DNA from: Candidatus Bathyarchaeota archaeon
Lineage (GTDB): Archaea; Thermoproteota; Bathyarchaeia; Bathyarchaeales; Bathycorpusculaceae
Direction of reading: 5' to 3'
NCBI GenBank assembly: GCA_026014585.1
Contig: JAOZIA010000025.1
Coordinates: forward strand, 1-49,788
DNA length: 49,788 nucleotides
Shown: piece after piece, positions 10,374-39,955 of the stretch
Numbering within the stretch: position 1 is the stretch's first letter
Layout: the number at the start of each line of letters is the position of its first letter
The notes under the pieces: generated by a model
Databases searched by the model: none
The model's input: the letters and a program-made list of their open reading frames with translations, nothing else
Told to the model about the DNA's origin: nothing
Position numbers and translations under genes: made by a program

Positions 10374-10427
10374 TCTATTTGGAGCCTAATAGCCAACTTA
10401 TGCAGAAACGATAGAGAGAGGTCAAAG
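10374..10427. repeat. Dispersed intergenic repeat, unit A copy 1
   Basis: This is a unit of about 54 bases that starts TCTATTTGGAGCC, continues with TAATAGCCAAC and TATGCAGAA, and ends GATAGAGAGAGGTCA. The same unit recurs near 33230. The ends TCTAT and ATAGA are complementary and could pair. It directly precedes a related unit B. Short Met-Gln peptides can be read in it, but the copies differ by single-base indels, so it looks non-coding. Confidence 0.8.
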
Positions 10428-10478
10428 TCTATTTGGAGCCTATTAGAAAGTCAATGCAGAAACCATAGAGGGGAGGTC
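10428..10478. repeat. Dispersed intergenic repeat, unit B copy 1
   Basis: Unit B is the diverged partner of unit A: TCTATTTGGAGCC, then TATTAGAAA, TGCAGAAAC and ATAGAGGGG. It lies in tandem with A at a 54-base period. The segment GGGGAGGTCCATAATGG after it resembles GGGGAGGACACTAATGG after the third locus near 39972. Confidence 0.8.
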
Positions 10479-29033: not shown

Positions 29034-29939
29034 ATGAGTAAAATTGAAGTTGAAGACACATTTATTGAAGCATTCAGTGGCATCTACTGCCGAGTAATCA
29101 TAACCGCAGATGACCAAGAAACCCTGCGCAAGGCAGCTGAGCACGCCACCGCAACGCCCTCCGTTGTCATTAACAGGGTCGAAGCAGGAATCGAGCGGTA
29201 CCTCAAACCAGAAGAAACCCCTGACGGCAGAGTCGGCGCGCTGTTGCAGTTTTGGGGCGGATTAAACCTGAAAACCTTTGAGGATTCCCTGCGGAAGTTC
29301 CAAAATGAACTCTCGTATCGCATCCGCCAAGACATCCTTGTCAAGCCCTTCACCGCCGTGTATGATGCGCTCCCGAATCCCGAGGGTAAACTGGACATGA
29401 TGGAGACCGTTGGGCACTGCGGCGACGGCTACGAATGGGTTGAGCAGCGGCATGGCAGAGAAGTCATCGTTGTGCCGCTTATGGTTCCCGATTTTGTAAT
29501 TGAGCACTATTTGGGCTGGGCACATGGGGTTTCAGGCGGCAACTTTTGGATCATGTGCACAACTAAGCAGGCGGTTAAGGAGGCGGGACAAAAAGCCCTC
29601 GACGCAGTCCACAGCGTGGATGGCGTGATTACTCCGTTTGATGTGTGTTCTGCTGGCAGCAAACCCGAAACGCATTTCCCCAAGATTGGCCCCACAACCA
29701 ACCACTACTACTGCCCAAGTCTTAAGGAGCGTTTGGGTGAGGAGTCTAAGGTTCCTTTGGGGGTAAACTATATTGCCGAGGTAGTGTATGACGGTGTCTC
29801 CTTAGAAGCTGTAAAAGCAGCCACTAAAGCGGGAATCCAAGCAGTCCTCGGTGTTGAGGGCGTGGTGCGGGTTTCAGCGGGCAACTACGGCGGCAAACTC
29901 GGAGAATACAAAATCCAATTAAAAGAGTTGTTGATATGA
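29034..29939 (+). CDS. ftr: Formylmethanofuran:tetrahydromethanopterin formyltransferase
   Basis: This 301-residue enzyme moves a formyl group between methanofuran and tetrahydromethanopterin in the methyl branch of archaeal C1 metabolism. Conserved blocks include TPSVVINRVEAGIE, VGHCGDGYEW, YLGWAHGVSGGNFWIM and CSAGSKPETHFPKIGPTTNHYYCPSL. The ATG is directly after the HAD gene stop, and the stop overlaps pfkB by 4 bases. It is part of one transcription unit with purF and purD. Confidence 0.96.
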   Translation: MSKIEVEDTFIEAFSGIYCRVIITADDQETLRKAAEHATATPSVVINRVEAGIERYLKPEETPDGRVGALLQFWGGLNLKTFEDSLRKFQNELSYRIRQDILVKPFTAVYDALPNPEGKLDMMETVGHCGDGYEWVEQRHGREVIVVPLMVPDFVIEHYLGWAHGVSGGNFWIMCTTKQAVKEAGQKALDAVHSVDGVITPFDVCSAGSKPETHFPKIGPTTNHYYCPSLKERLGEESKVPLGVNYIAEVVYDGVSLEAVKAATKAGIQAVLGVEGVVRVSAGNYGGKLGEYKIQLKELLI

Positions 29940-30850
29940 CAAAATTTGATGTTATCGGTTTTGGAGCCCTAAACGTTGATTCGCTCTTTAAAGTAGACAA
30001 AATCGCAGGCGCAGAAGAAGAAAGCTCCGTTATAGACTACTCAGAATCCTGCGGAGGCTCCGCGGCAAACGTGATGGTTGGCTTAGCACGGTTGGGCTGC
30101 AGAACAGGCTTTATTGGCAAAGTTGCGGATGACCGCGAGGGCAAAATGCACCTTGACGCTTTCAAAGCCGAAGGCGTAAACACAGAGGGCATCACGGTGG
30201 CTAAGCAGGGCAGAAGCGGCTTAGTCATGGGCTTTGTGGACAAGAAGGGGCAACGCGCACTCTACATTAACGCCGGCGCTAACGATTTTGTGGAGCCCCG
30301 AGAAATCAAATGGGAATACGTCAGCCAAACCAAACTACTCCACTTAACATCCTTTGTTGGCGAAAAATCGCTTCGAACCCAGAAGAAACTGGTTGGTTCG
30401 CTGCCGCAGGGCGTGGAAATCAGCTTTGACCCCGGCTCAGTATACGCACAAAAAGGCTTCGCAGCAATTGAACCCCTAATCAGAAACGCCTCAGTCATGA
30501 TGCCAAACGCCCTAGAACTGGAACTACTCACGGGCGAATCCGACTATCAAAAAGGTGCAAGAGTACTAATTGATGCGGGTGTTAAAATTGTCGCGGTTAA
30601 ACTTGGCGCCAAAGGCTGCTACGTAACAGATGGCACCGAGCAATGCAGAGTTGAAGCCTACAAAGTCAACGCCACCGACACCACAGGCGCAGGCGACGCA
30701 TACTGCGCAGGCTTCCTATACGGAATAATAAACCAAAAAACCCTAACCGAATGCGGACGACTAGGCAACTGGGTAGCATCAAGAAAAGTAACAAAAACAG
30801 GAGCAAGAACAGGCTTACCATACGAAAAAGATTTGGCAACATTTGGTTGA
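29936..30850 (+). CDS. PfkB-family carbohydrate/nucleoside kinase
   Basis: This 304-residue ribokinase-fold protein has GGSAANVMVGLARLG (about 40-54) and the C-terminal anion-hole motif DTTGAGDAYCAGF (about 242-254) with the catalytic Asp. The substrate may be a sugar or nucleoside (ribose and inosine/cytidine kinases are in this family). Being last in a purine and C1 operon suggests a nucleoside or ribose salvage role, which is inference. The ATG overlaps the ftr stop by four bases. Confidence 0.88.
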   Translation: MTKFDVIGFGALNVDSLFKVDKIAGAEEESSVIDYSESCGGSAANVMVGLARLGCRTGFIGKVADDREGKMHLDAFKAEGVNTEGITVAKQGRSGLVMGFVDKKGQRALYINAGANDFVEPREIKWEYVSQTKLLHLTSFVGEKSLRTQKKLVGSLPQGVEISFDPGSVYAQKGFAAIEPLIRNASVMMPNALELELLTGESDYQKGARVLIDAGVKIVAVKLGAKGCYVTDGTEQCRVEAYKVNATDTTGAGDAYCAGFLYGIINQKTLTECGRLGNWVASRKVTKTGARTGLPYEKDLATFG

Positions 30851-30960
30851 ACTAACGCCTGATAGAGATGAACTGCTGACAAACTAAGGCAACAAATTCA
30901 AGAGTACAATAACAAAACTCACTATAATCATTTAAAGCAAAGGCTAACTATTGATGCAGT

Positions 30961-31677
30961 ATGGATAGCTTACAAAACGTTGGAAGAGGGTCATCCGAAA
31001 ACAAACCAAAATCCAAATACACACCAAGTATTCCTGATAATGGTGTACCAGCAAACGCTCCATGCCAGTGCCCTTATTGTAGAACAAAAACCACTGCAAC
31101 AGCTATTGAATGGACTTCAGACAAGTGGATTTGTAAGTGTGATAACGGCAAATGTGGAAAAACATTCTTTGCAGATGTAGAATACAATAGTGCAATCCAA
31201 GATTATGATGATAAAATCACACTTTATTTTGACATTCTCGCAACCTATCCCAAAGTTGTGGCTGAAAAACATGTTAGCATCCCCGAAAACATATGGGCTG
31301 ACTACGCAGAGGCATCAAATTGCTTCAATGCTGATTCATACAAAGCAACAGTCGTTATGTGCCGTAGGACACTCCAAAATGTCGGCGTTAAAAAAGGCGC
31401 TACAAAGAAGTATGTAAAAGGTGGTTGGATTCCGCTTAAAGAACAGATAAAGTCAGCTTTTCCACAAAAAGAATATCCACTAATCAATCAACTTACCGAT
31501 GCAATAAAATTCTTGGGTGACTATGGAGGGCACCCTAACGATGACGGCATAGACCAAGTAACAAAAGAAGATGCAGAAACAATACTAGATTTTACTTTTC
31601 AAATTCTGAAGATAGTATTTATTCAACAATGGGAAATTCAGAAAATCCTTGACAAAAAAACAGCCTCAAAAAAATAA
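30961..31677 (+). CDS. Zinc-ribbon plus DUF4145 protein
   Basis: This 238-residue protein has a zinc-ribbon-like part (CQCPYC near 35-40 and CKCDNGKC near 60-66), followed by an all-helical DUF4145-type domain containing YKATVVMCRRTLQNV, LINQLTDAIKFLGDYGGHP and DAETILDFTFQIL. DUF4145 is often found near restriction and other defence genes, but its activity is not known. It has an ATG start and a TATA-like TTTAAA about 35 bases upstream. It heads an accessory cassette between two purine operons. Confidence 0.75.
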   Translation: MDSLQNVGRGSSENKPKSKYTPSIPDNGVPANAPCQCPYCRTKTTATAIEWTSDKWICKCDNGKCGKTFFADVEYNSAIQDYDDKITLYFDILATYPKVVAEKHVSIPENIWADYAEASNCFNADSYKATVVMCRRTLQNVGVKKGATKKYVKGGWIPLKEQIKSAFPQKEYPLINQLTDAIKFLGDYGGHPNDDGIDQVTKEDAETILDFTFQILKIVFIQQWEIQKILDKKTASKK

Positions 31678-31790
31678 TCAAAACACTATTTCTTAACATC
31701 CACTCAATTGATACCCAAATATAAAGAGCACTGTTGTTTTTACGAGTTAAGCCCGAATTTTAATGGCGGGGGGTTCTGTTAGGTTTTAGT

Positions 31791-31943
31791 TTAGTTTTTG
31801 TATTGGAAGGTGTAGTGGGTTTGTTTTTTGTTTTGGTGTTTTATGAATGCTTTAAAGCCTGCTTGGTTGATGCATTTGATGAATAGTTCGCGCTGCTGAC
31901 TGGGCGTCAGGTCTGTTACGTCATACTGCTTGGCGCTCTGCAT
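31791..31943 (-). CDS. 50-residue basic protein
   Basis: The frame starts at ATG 31943, overlaps the 3' end of the upstream small gene by about 28 bases, and reads MQSAKQYDVTDLTPSQQREL through to HYTFQYKN and TAA. The protein is hydrophilic, with a helix (residues 12-30) and a possible terminal beta hairpin. No family is recognised. The tight overlaps suggest a three-gene unit rather than chance frames. Confidence 0.5.
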   Translation of the reverse strand: MQSAKQYDVTDLTPSQQRELFIKCINQAGFKAFIKHQNKKQTHYTFQYKN

Positions 31944-32098
31944 TTCTCAGACCCACTTTTTTCGAGAACTGTTACTTTTTGGGTTTTTAGCAACCAATCG
32001 CACTGAAGGCTTTGGCTGATTTCTTCTTCTATTTGGCTGTTTGATATGTTTTCGGCTTCTGGAACCAAGTTAATGGTGATTATGGCTATTTTGTTCAT
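31916..32098 (-). CDS. 60-residue small protein of the cassette
   Basis: The ATG at 32098 overlaps the TGA of the zinc-ribbon gene (ATGA). The product MNKIAIITINLVPEAENIS... starts with a beta strand, then an acidic helix (about 21-32) and a short beta strand KVTVLEKSG. No family is recognised. A longer frame up to 32158 would overlap the zinc gene needlessly. Confidence 0.5.
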   Translation of the reverse strand: MNKIAIITINLVPEAENISNSQIEEEISQSLQCDWLLKTQKVTVLEKSGSEKCRAPSSMT

Positions 32099-32277
32099 GT
32101 TTTTTTCTCCTGTTGGGTTTCTTTTGGGTTTACATATTGGGCAACTACCCTGCCGCATTGTGGGCAGTGCACGTGGTAGCCTTTGGGATAGCTTGGGTCA
32201 CCTGATACTTTTGCGCTTTTTTTGGGGATTATGCAACCGCAAGGACAGCTCCAAGCTTTTGTATTTTTTATGGGCAA
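32095..32277 (-). CDS. Small zinc-ribbon protein
   Basis: This 60-residue protein has five cysteines: C11, C13 and C15 near the N-terminus and CPQC at 38-41. The ligand spacing suggests a zinc ribbon. It is the first of three overlapping small genes; the promoter would lie in the 32278-32413 region it shares with the ribbon-helix-helix gene. It may be a nucleic-acid-binding or adaptor protein. Confidence 0.6.
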   Translation of the reverse strand: MPIKNTKAWSCPCGCIIPKKSAKVSGDPSYPKGYHVHCPQCGRVVAQYVNPKETQQEKKT

Positions 32278-32329
32278 TTGGGGCAGGTGTATCTTTGTGG
32301 ACGGCTGCGTTTTTATCCACCACTACAAA

Positions 32330-32350
32330 TAGTATTACTTAGTAGTATTA
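32330..32350. promoter_or_regulatory. Direct repeat in the divergent cassette promoter
   Basis: TAGTATTA occurs at 32330-32337 and 32343-32350 with a 13-base period, in the 136-base gap between the zinc-ribbon gene (minus) and the ribbon-helix-helix gene (plus). Such paired short sites are typical operators of RHH autorepressors. Confidence 0.45.
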
Positions 32351-32413
32351 AAGATTTTATAGTAAGAAAAAGTAGAAACAATACTTAAACTACAAGCCAA
32401 GCCATAATCAACC

Positions 32414-32566
32414 ATGCCACGAAAAGCAAAAAAGAAAATCAGCCTATCAATCGACTCTGGCTTGCTTGAATGGATAGACCAAAACGTCTCAAACTTCACG
32501 TTCCAAAACCGCAGCCACGCAATCGAGCAAGCAGTTTGCCGTATGAAAAAAGAAATGAATCAATAA
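32414..32566 (+). CDS. Ribbon-helix-helix (CopG-like) DNA-binding protein
   Basis: This 50-residue protein has a basic N-terminus, a beta strand KKISLSIDSGLLEWIDQ and the second helix of the RHH fold NRSHAIEQAVCRMKKEM. It should bind DNA as a dimer. It starts at ATG 32414 and lies divergent from the small-gene operon, so it is a candidate repressor of that cassette. Confidence 0.75.
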   Translation: MPRKAKKKISLSIDSGLLEWIDQNVSNFTFQNRSHAIEQAVCRMKKEMNQ

Positions 32567-32648
32567 TTCTTCTATTTTGTGATTTCTGTATGGTGTTTTT
32601 TGGTGTTGCCGTTATTATTTCTTAACTTATTCTTAACTTGTTATTAAC

Positions 32649-32657
32649 TTTTTTTAT
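32649..32657 (+). promoter_or_regulatory. TATA-like box for the winged-helix gene
   Basis: TTTTTTATATC lies about 41-49 bases before ATG 32698. Its position argues against a longer reading of the gene from 32638, because that start would be upstream of the promoter. Confidence 0.45.
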
Positions 32658-32697
32658 ATCTTTACATGAGCTTCTGCTCTACGGAAGCAACCCAAAC

Positions 32698-32958
32698 ATG
32701 GATTGGCAAAAATACGCATGGGTAAAGCGAGGCAGCAGGCGCCAAAAAACATTGGAGCTATTTAGCAAAACAAGCAACCCATTGTCGATAAATGATGTGC
32801 ATGAAAAATCCAAAATCGCCATTGCCCAAGCATCGGTGACCATAGCCGAGTTGGAAACTGCTGGACTAATCAAGTGCCTAAACACTCAAGATAAAATCGG
32901 AAAACTCTACCTCATAACGGAAGAGGGAAAAGAAATAATTACAAAAATAAACGCCTAA
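32698..32958 (+). CDS. Winged-helix transcription regulator
   Basis: This 86-residue protein (MDWQKYAWVKRGSRRQ...) is a winged helix: helix RRQKTLELF, helix SINDVHEKSKI, recognition helix IAQASVTIAELETAGLI, and a wing GKLYLITEEGKEII. Archaeal members of this type commonly regulate neighbouring genes. ATG 32698 is chosen from the TATA box position. Confidence 0.75.
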   Translation: MDWQKYAWVKRGSRRQKTLELFSKTSNPLSINDVHEKSKIAIAQASVTIAELETAGLIKCLNTQDKIGKLYLITEEGKEIITKINA

Positions 32959-32985
32959 ATATGCTGTTGAGCTGGGTCACATAAA

Positions 32986-33174
32986 ATGTTGGAAAGCGAA
33001 AGCAAAATAGTAAACCGACCAACCCAAACAGGGGGAAAACAGTACGACAAAATATTCATCTATGTCCCCACAGAAGTCGCCAAAGACAGCGCATTCCCCT
33101 TTACGGCAAACCAAAAAGTCAAAGTAAGAATTGACCCAGAAAACAAACGCCTAATAATAGAAAAAACCCAATAA
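32986..33174 (+). CDS. Small AbrB-like protein
   Basis: This 62-residue protein has the beta-rich pattern of SpoVT/AbrB swapped-hairpin DNA-binding domains: KIFIYVPTEVAKDSAFPFTANQKVKVRIDPENKRLIIEK. It has an ATG start and lies 27 bases after the winged-helix gene, likely co-transcribed. It may pair with the upstream regulator or act as an antitoxin-like factor; no toxin is adjacent. Confidence 0.6.
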   Translation: MLESESKIVNRPTQTGGKQYDKIFIYVPTEVAKDSAFPFTANQKVKVRIDPENKRLIIEKTQ

Positions 33175-33229
33175 CCCCTCTTCATTTTGTTTGCAGCTTG
33201 AGGCAATTCCTGCCCAAATTTACAACATT

Positions 33230-33284
33230 CATATTTGGAGCCTAATAGCCAACCTATGCAGAATGATAGAGAGAGGTCACCGTT
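33230..33284. repeat. Dispersed intergenic repeat, unit A copy 2
   Basis: CATATTTGGAGCCTAATAGC, then CAACCTATGCAGAA and TGATAGAGAGAGGTCA: the same unit A as at 10374, with a few differences including one indel. It again precedes a unit B at a 55-base period. It lies between the accessory cassette and the purQ stop. Confidence 0.8.
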
Positions 33285-33333
33285 TCTATTTGGTGCCTAT
33301 TAGAAATTCTATGCAGAATCTATAGAGGGGTAG
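33285..33333. repeat. Dispersed intergenic repeat, unit B copy 2
   Basis: TCTATTTGGTGCCTATTAG, then AAATTCTATGCAGAATC and TATAGAGGGG: unit B in tandem after unit A copy 2. The outer TCTAT and ATAGA ends are again complementary. Confidence 0.8.
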
Positions 33334-33343
33334 AGTGGGGGGT

Positions 33344-39907: not shown

Positions 39908-39955
39908 CCTATTTGGAGCCTATTAGAAACTCCATGCAGAAACTATAGAGGGGTC
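39908..39955. repeat. Dispersed intergenic repeat, unit B copy 3
   Basis: CCTATTTGGAGCCTATTAG, then AAACTCCATGCAGAAAC and TATAGAGGGGTCAAAG. It is preceded by AAAGTCTATTTGCTG, which looks like the truncated end of a unit A or the start of an interrupted unit. GGGGAGGACACTAATGG follows about 20 bases later. Confidence 0.75.

Follow-up and report, generated by a model that had tools for sequence, protein, structure and literature searches.

The purQ-pfkB junction of a Candidatus Bathyarchaeota archaeon raises the question of whether the small genes lying between two convergent purine operons form one cassette or came together separately, and what they might do as a group. The DNA studied is contig C24 (JAOZIA010000025.1; 49,788 nucleotides, hereafter the window) of a 2.31 Mb genome in 25 contigs, and the interval in question is bounded by the stop codons of pfkB (30850) and purQ (33344). 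Our analysis shows that this interval is a mosaic of separate accessory parts and not a single cassette, and five parts can be distinguished: the DUF4145 gene; three small genes that form an operon, together with a ribbon-helix-helix (RHH) gene divergent to it; a winged-helix gene; a gene for an AbrB-like protein; and a dispersed repeat. The wider reading, to which we give an even chance, is that unrelated small modules have repeatedly come to occupy the junction, that the core of the present filling is a small-protein module that would repress itself, and that the DUF4145 gene is independent of it. The core module consists of the following features (aa, amino acids):

31791..31943, minus strand: tiny1, 50 aa, last gene of the operon, with 20 credible loci spread over 12 genomes
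31916..32098, minus strand: tiny2, 60 aa, middle gene of the operon, five copies in its own genome
32095..32277, minus strand: tiny3, Cys-rich and zinc-ribbon-like, 60 aa, TTG start, first gene of the operon, intact in L087 and L088
32278..32413, no strand: divergent promoter and presumed operator between tiny3 and the RHH gene, 91.9% identical to the L087 copy
32414..32566, plus strand: RHH protein, 50 aa, presumed repressor of the operon, weak RHH profile matches

The three minus-strand genes overlap (32277-31791) and are transcribed in the order tiny3, tiny2, tiny1, with the stop codon of tiny3 overlapping the start of tiny2. The segment comprising the operon and the RHH gene (31782-32599) is duplicated, with an 86% copy at C2:293283-294101 (L087) in which all four frames are intact, and partial copies are present elsewhere; the frames of tiny3, tiny2 and tiny1 are intact in the window, L087 and L088. 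tiny1 is under purifying selection, the ratio of non-synonymous to synonymous substitution (dN/dS) between copies being 0.17-0.52 in five comparisons, of which single values are rough because each covers ~50 codons. Between the window and L087, the RHH protein is 100% identical (six of six base changes are synonymous), with weak profile support for this family (NikR, E 0.0012; a PHROG repressor, E 0.0017). The divergent promoter is 91.9% identical between the same two copies (125/136 columns, including a 39-base identical stretch) compared to 80.8% (396/490) for the three tiny genes (Fisher p 0.0017), and both the RHH protein and the promoter are more conserved than the operon that they adjoin.

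A profile of 18 tiny1 proteins, searched against 256 genomes of the class (E ≤ 0.001), gave matches in 13 of them, namely its own genome, ten others of the genus and two of another genus in the same family. From 22 matched places, 20 were kept as credible, in 12 genomes of one family; the matches at G019:C5 (E 2.4e-4, 14 positions) and in G155 (E 5.6e-4, the other genus) were set aside as chance, and that at L124 (E 3.6e-8) was kept. Inspection of the open reading frames (ORFs) revealed a divergent small DNA-binding gene directly upstream of tiny1, or of its operon, at 18 of the 20 loci. The partner is an RHH protein at seven loci (window, L087, L088, L090, L092, L111, L124), an AbrB/MazE protein at four (L089, L114, L119, L120) and a winged-helix protein at seven (L094, L112, L115, L116, L117, L121, L253). 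The regulator is exchanged between loci, with tiny1 constant. Several of these loci cannot count as independent, since L087 nearly duplicates the window locus, L116 and L117 have common neighbours, and the partners at L114, L119 and L120 are similar. At least 11 of the 20 loci have an upstream DNA-binding gene supported by Pfam (E ≤ 0.01), of which nine are named and two were deduced from member counts, L109 being counted via a gene that is not adjacent and divergent. Partners at seven or eight loci were assigned by eye from ORFs after the neighbours had been listed; those at L090, L092, L119 and L121 were seen only in a second listing with shorter ORFs, and that at L119, and probably L121, was then supported by Pfam. 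At the loci beyond those 11 with Pfam support, the assignments are readings of the sequence, aided by family alignments in four cases.

The 138 ORFs upstream of tiny1 included five HxlR, three MazE, two RHH_1 and other helix-turn-helix (HTH) matches in Pfam, and the 89 ORFs downstream included three PadR, one MazE and one PIN. As a control, the ORFs upstream of 20 randomly chosen intergenic anchors in this genome (102 in all) gave no match to a DNA-binding regulator family; zinc-ribbon and other families were each matched by single members. Matches of HxlR type are rare, with 1-4 per genome in the 12 tiny1 genomes, yet they lie directly divergent to five tiny1 genes, for which the chance is ~4e-11 (900-base reach, three copies per 2.2 Mb, loci treated as independent), and the HxlR-tiny1 pairing is therefore far beyond chance. 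Some of the shared promoters also carry type-specific conserved sequence. The divergent regions of HxlR type have AAATAGTAC in common in all five cases, and in four of them, one of these from another genus, a TAGTAC-n3-GTACTA palindrome adjoins a TATA-like TATAAATA or, in L117, the closely similar CATAAATA. A site of this type would block the TATA-binding step of archaeal transcription.

The junction itself was compared using the DNA downstream of purQ in 20 genomes of the same genus. pfkB faces purQ in eight of these, and in the rest the two genes are non-adjacent within the stretch or the contig ends. The site is empty in three of the eight (G013, G003, G018), with the 3' ends of purQ and pfkB overlapping by ~18-21 bases, which shows that the gap is dispensable. 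The remaining five hold differing content of 0.2-4 kb: 219 bases in G009, an AbrB/MazE-like and PIN pair in G023 and G005 (in G023, PIN 3.3e-13 and MazE_antitoxin 0.0028, the latter below the cut-off; in G005, by sequence likeness to G023), ~4 kb in G019 with histidine-kinase-like, VapC-like, RHH-like and other ORFs (the VapC has profile support; the kinase and RHH names are readings by eye), and a single ORF of 1196 aa in G007. Judged by eye, this last ORF (L077:1295-4885) resembles a right-handed beta-helix repeat protein that is secreted. The gap between purQ and pfkB varies among relatives, being empty in some and differently occupied in others, so unrelated content has entered this junction on repeated occasions. 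The VapBC-type pairs of G023 and G005 share with the tiny1 module a small accessory pair at the same junction, but they are co-directional and the small genes of the window find no match in them. Being empty in some relatives, this junction is a natural test site. The other features of the interval and its flanks are:

29936..30850, plus strand: pfkB-family kinase, left flank and end of the purF-purD-HAD-ftr-pfkB operon (Pfam PfkB, 1.1e-57)
30961..31677, plus strand: zinc-ribbon DUF4145 (HEPN-type) protein, 238 aa (Pfam DUF4145, 2.1e-11)
32698..32958, plus strand: winged-helix protein, 86 aa (DprA_WH, E 8e-4)
32986..33174, plus strand: AbrB-like protein, 62 aa, relatives at L089, L091 and L238
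33230..33335, no strand: dispersed intergenic repeat, a tandem pair of units A and B, at least 45 matches in the genome
33344..34162, minus strand: purQ, right flank and end of the purM-purS-purL-purQ operon (Pfam GATase_5, 1e-67)

A preliminary description of this DNA had placed the genes of the interval between two convergent purine operons, as Pfam and the ORFs bear out (matches to PurD, HAD, Ftr, PfkB, PurQ, PurL, PurS and PurM; purF matched in its glutamine-amidotransferase half only), and its repeat units A and B are real. It had further read the interval as an accessory cassette, possibly present or absent as a unit. The accessory character stands, the interval being absent in three relatives and replaced by other content in five; the single cassette does not, since the operon with its RHH gene, the winged-helix gene, the AbrB-like gene and the repeat each have relatives at unrelated sites. 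Conservation at this place together with core-like codon use would, according to the same description, have spoken against an accessory origin. The place is not conserved; third-position G+C of the small genes is ordinary (0.43-0.59, against a mean of 0.46 for the 35 window ORFs of at least 150 aa), and that of the DUF4145 gene is low. The link to defence drawn in that description may hold for DUF4145, a HEPN family with a weak PD-T7-4 match, but the HEPN motif of the window protein is altered.

Our data suggest the following course of events. The junction of the convergent purine operons would tolerate insertions, and the divergent regulator, here the RHH protein, would bind the shared promoter and hold the zinc-ribbon/tiny2/tiny1 operon nearly silent until the regulator is lost or titrated, or until its own signal inactivates it, whereupon the small proteins would be made. 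tiny1, the constant part, would be the effector released on derepression. Elsewhere the same effector would be under other repressors (AbrB/MazE and winged-helix types), allowing copies to coexist without cross-control. The winged-helix and AbrB-like genes of the window look like regulators of modules whose effectors are gone, and DUF4145 would be an independent, recently acquired HEPN-type gene. The tiny1 module is likely a new variant of the regulator/effector, toxin-antitoxin-like kind. More tentatively, and with some doubt on our part, tiny1 may found a new class of divergent, partner-swapping modules, in which a constant protein of ~50 aa is silenced by repressors that can replace one another, belong to three folds unrelated to each other (RHH, AbrB/MazE, winged helix) and have their own operators, in several insulated copies per genome, at least three copies here being joined to an older zinc-ribbon/tiny2 operon. 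Many tiny genes of uncultured archaea remain unannotated, and here it is the pairing, not homology, that indicates a regulated module. If the proposal is true, it adds a divergent architecture missed by searches for co-directional pairs and offers a simple finding rule, namely a small protein whose gene diverges from that of a small DNA-binding protein.

A putative toxin-like action of tiny1 on the cell is the leading reading of its role, and a benign, signal-responsive effector its main rival. As far as the available part of a survey of type II toxin-antitoxin systems goes (PMC2701414), the tiny1 module shares with them a small constant protein with a small RHH, AbrB/MazE or HTH-type partner, as well as patchy occurrence, multiple copies and partner exchange, and the type II pairing of two small adjacent genes, one of them DNA-binding, is found at 18 of the 20 tiny1 loci. 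The same part of the survey maps co-directed neighbours, and divergent pairs could therefore escape it. Several observations weigh against the proposed self-repressed, toxin-antitoxin-like module. tiny1 and its partner are divergent at those 18 of 20 loci, and not co-directional as in type II systems; at L109 the upstream RHH gene is co-directional and the divergent arrangement is absent, and at L113 a divergent partner is missing while a MazE-PIN pair lies downstream. The partner regulators consist of a DNA-binding domain alone and show none of the effector-binding extensions that most type II antitoxins have. No significant family match, including toxin families, was obtained for tiny1, and its single-sequence (unaligned) AlphaFold model is poor (pLDDT 67.5). 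A small regulator also lies downstream of tiny1 at 4 of 20 loci compared to 11 of 20 upstream (p 0.048), so regulators are common on both sides, and palindromes in most RHH- and MazE-type regions are no better than shuffles, for which reason palindromic operators were rejected as a general rule. A HicA-like fold for tiny1 was dropped on account of a histidine that is not conserved. We found no published account of tiny1, a protein with no name to search by. The rival, that tiny1 is a harmless small effector (e.g., a chaperone or a nucleic-acid-binding adaptor) of a stress- or signal-response module to which different signals are relayed via different regulators, is possible but unlikely. HxlR and other winged-helix regulators typically sense signals, and such partners fit this alternative, as do the regulators without effector-binding extensions and the purifying selection on tiny1, whereas the patchy distribution of tiny1 (matches in 13 of the 256 genomes of the class, of which one was weak and rejected) and its multiple copies are more typical of selfish or conflict genes than of stress genes with a housekeeping role.

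Two further alternatives concern the interval as a whole. That one mobile defence cassette was inserted as a unit between the operons, as the preliminary description implied, is very improbable, even though three relatives have empty sites, DUF4145 is linked to defence (PMC3710099, available part) and its protein weakly matches PD-T7-4. No integrase or transposase is among the family matches of the interval genes, as that description had already said of integrases, apart from one chance-level transposase-domain match (E 0.23); the flanks of the module copies in the window and L087 share no repeat, terminal or otherwise, as judged by eye; and the parts occur separately elsewhere. A whole-cassette element was rejected on these grounds, and a viral origin because five IMG/VR scans (tiny1, tiny2, the AbrB-like and DUF4145 proteins, and the repeat motif) found nothing. 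Insertion linked to tRNA genes was likewise dropped, a tRNA occurring anywhere in 2 of 20 stretches with no pattern (19 tiny1 loci besides the window, with L094 representing L110, and the tiny2 locus L091). It is also improbable that the interval is a graveyard, where small genes that share no function have gathered as neutral debris in a permissive 3'-3' gap. The overlapping purQ and pfkB ends of relatives, the winged-helix and AbrB-like genes left here without effectors and the dispersed repeat nearby would suit such debris, but against it stand the intact frames, the dN/dS of tiny1 and an RHH protein without amino-acid change between copies.

The DUF4145 protein scores 44.1 bits against a Pfam cut-off of 23.1 and matches PHROG 1305 (2.8e-22) over residues 33-236, near full length, and its match to PD-T7-4 in PADLOC is weak (E 9.2e-6, 23.3 bits, profile positions 15-180 of 211, for a model without a stated cut-off). 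Relatives were found in two cases among 80 other genomes (31 and 34% identity) and in one phage record (30% identity), with no second copy within its own genome, and its third-position G+C of 0.30 equals the lowest value among the 35 window ORFs; the gene was probably acquired horizontally and recently. According to the available part of PMC3710099, DUF4145 is part of the HEPN superfamily, in many cases carries a catalytic motif that is conserved, is at times fused to zinc ribbons, and is known also from archaea and double-stranded DNA viruses. The window protein combines a zinc ribbon with DUF4145, a fusion listed there, and differs from this group, including PD-T7-4, in its weak PD-T7-4 match and in having K-x7-H where both archaeal relatives have R-x7-H, so that the R...H ribonuclease motif of HEPN proteins is altered. 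The H is kept, and the activity of the protein is uncertain because K replaces R eight residues before this conserved residue.

The winged-helix protein has one relative in 60 other genomes (78% identity; L094/L264 in G013), and there it pairs divergently with a tiny1 gene. No family match was obtained for the AbrB-like protein (32986-33174); its model (pLDDT 84.8) gave weak fold matches to MazE, Sso7c4, VapB and AbrB, none at E ≤ 0.001. Sequence matches to it occur in 50 of 81 genomes (its own included), many of them weak; the named relatives that it matches include several Candidatus Bathyarchaeota assemblies. In its own genome, relatives are divergent to zinc-ribbon/tiny2 or tiny2/tiny1 genes (L089, L091), and in Bathyarchaeota BA2 (L238) one is divergent to a zinc-ribbon/tiny2 operon. 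Other relatives stand alone. The zinc-ribbon/tiny2 operon with an AbrB-like gene is probably an older sister module. Relatives of tiny3 are found at L121 and, more loosely, at L271, and weaker relatives of tiny2 in other genera of the order. Distant relatives of tiny2 in other families of the order (L137:1504-1916; L130 and L132 around 1125-1660) adjoin RHH-like or PadR-type genes, and in G048, which belongs to a different family of the order, the tiny3-like zinc ribbon and a 41-aa ORF are found close to an RHH match (L271:1961-2234). The present genome (L091:2711-3428) and BA2 (L238:2438-3204) both have the zinc-ribbon/tiny2 operon with its divergent AbrB-like gene.

For the A/B repeat, at least 45 matches were counted in its own genome (40 of 105 candidates scored). 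It occurs in the window also at 10374-10478 and 39909-39954, and has matches in further genomes, both within the genus and in one more genus of the family. Its units of ~50 bases, often in tandem pairs, begin with an imperfect palindrome, CTATTTGGnnCCTAATAG, and all 30 copies placed are intergenic, between ORFs of at least 90 aa. An RNA element was rejected, with no covarying pair in 21 copies and no Rfam match worth keeping (one at E 0.97). The repeat resembles REP/MITE-like dispersed repeats in unit length, frequent pairing, intergenic position and copy number, and differs from them in that no transposase, terminal repeat or RNA structure is linked to it here. At five tiny1/tiny2 loci (window, L087, L090, L091, L092) it lies 17-246 bases past the stop codon of the regulator; it is not so placed at L088 and L089, and most copies lie elsewhere.

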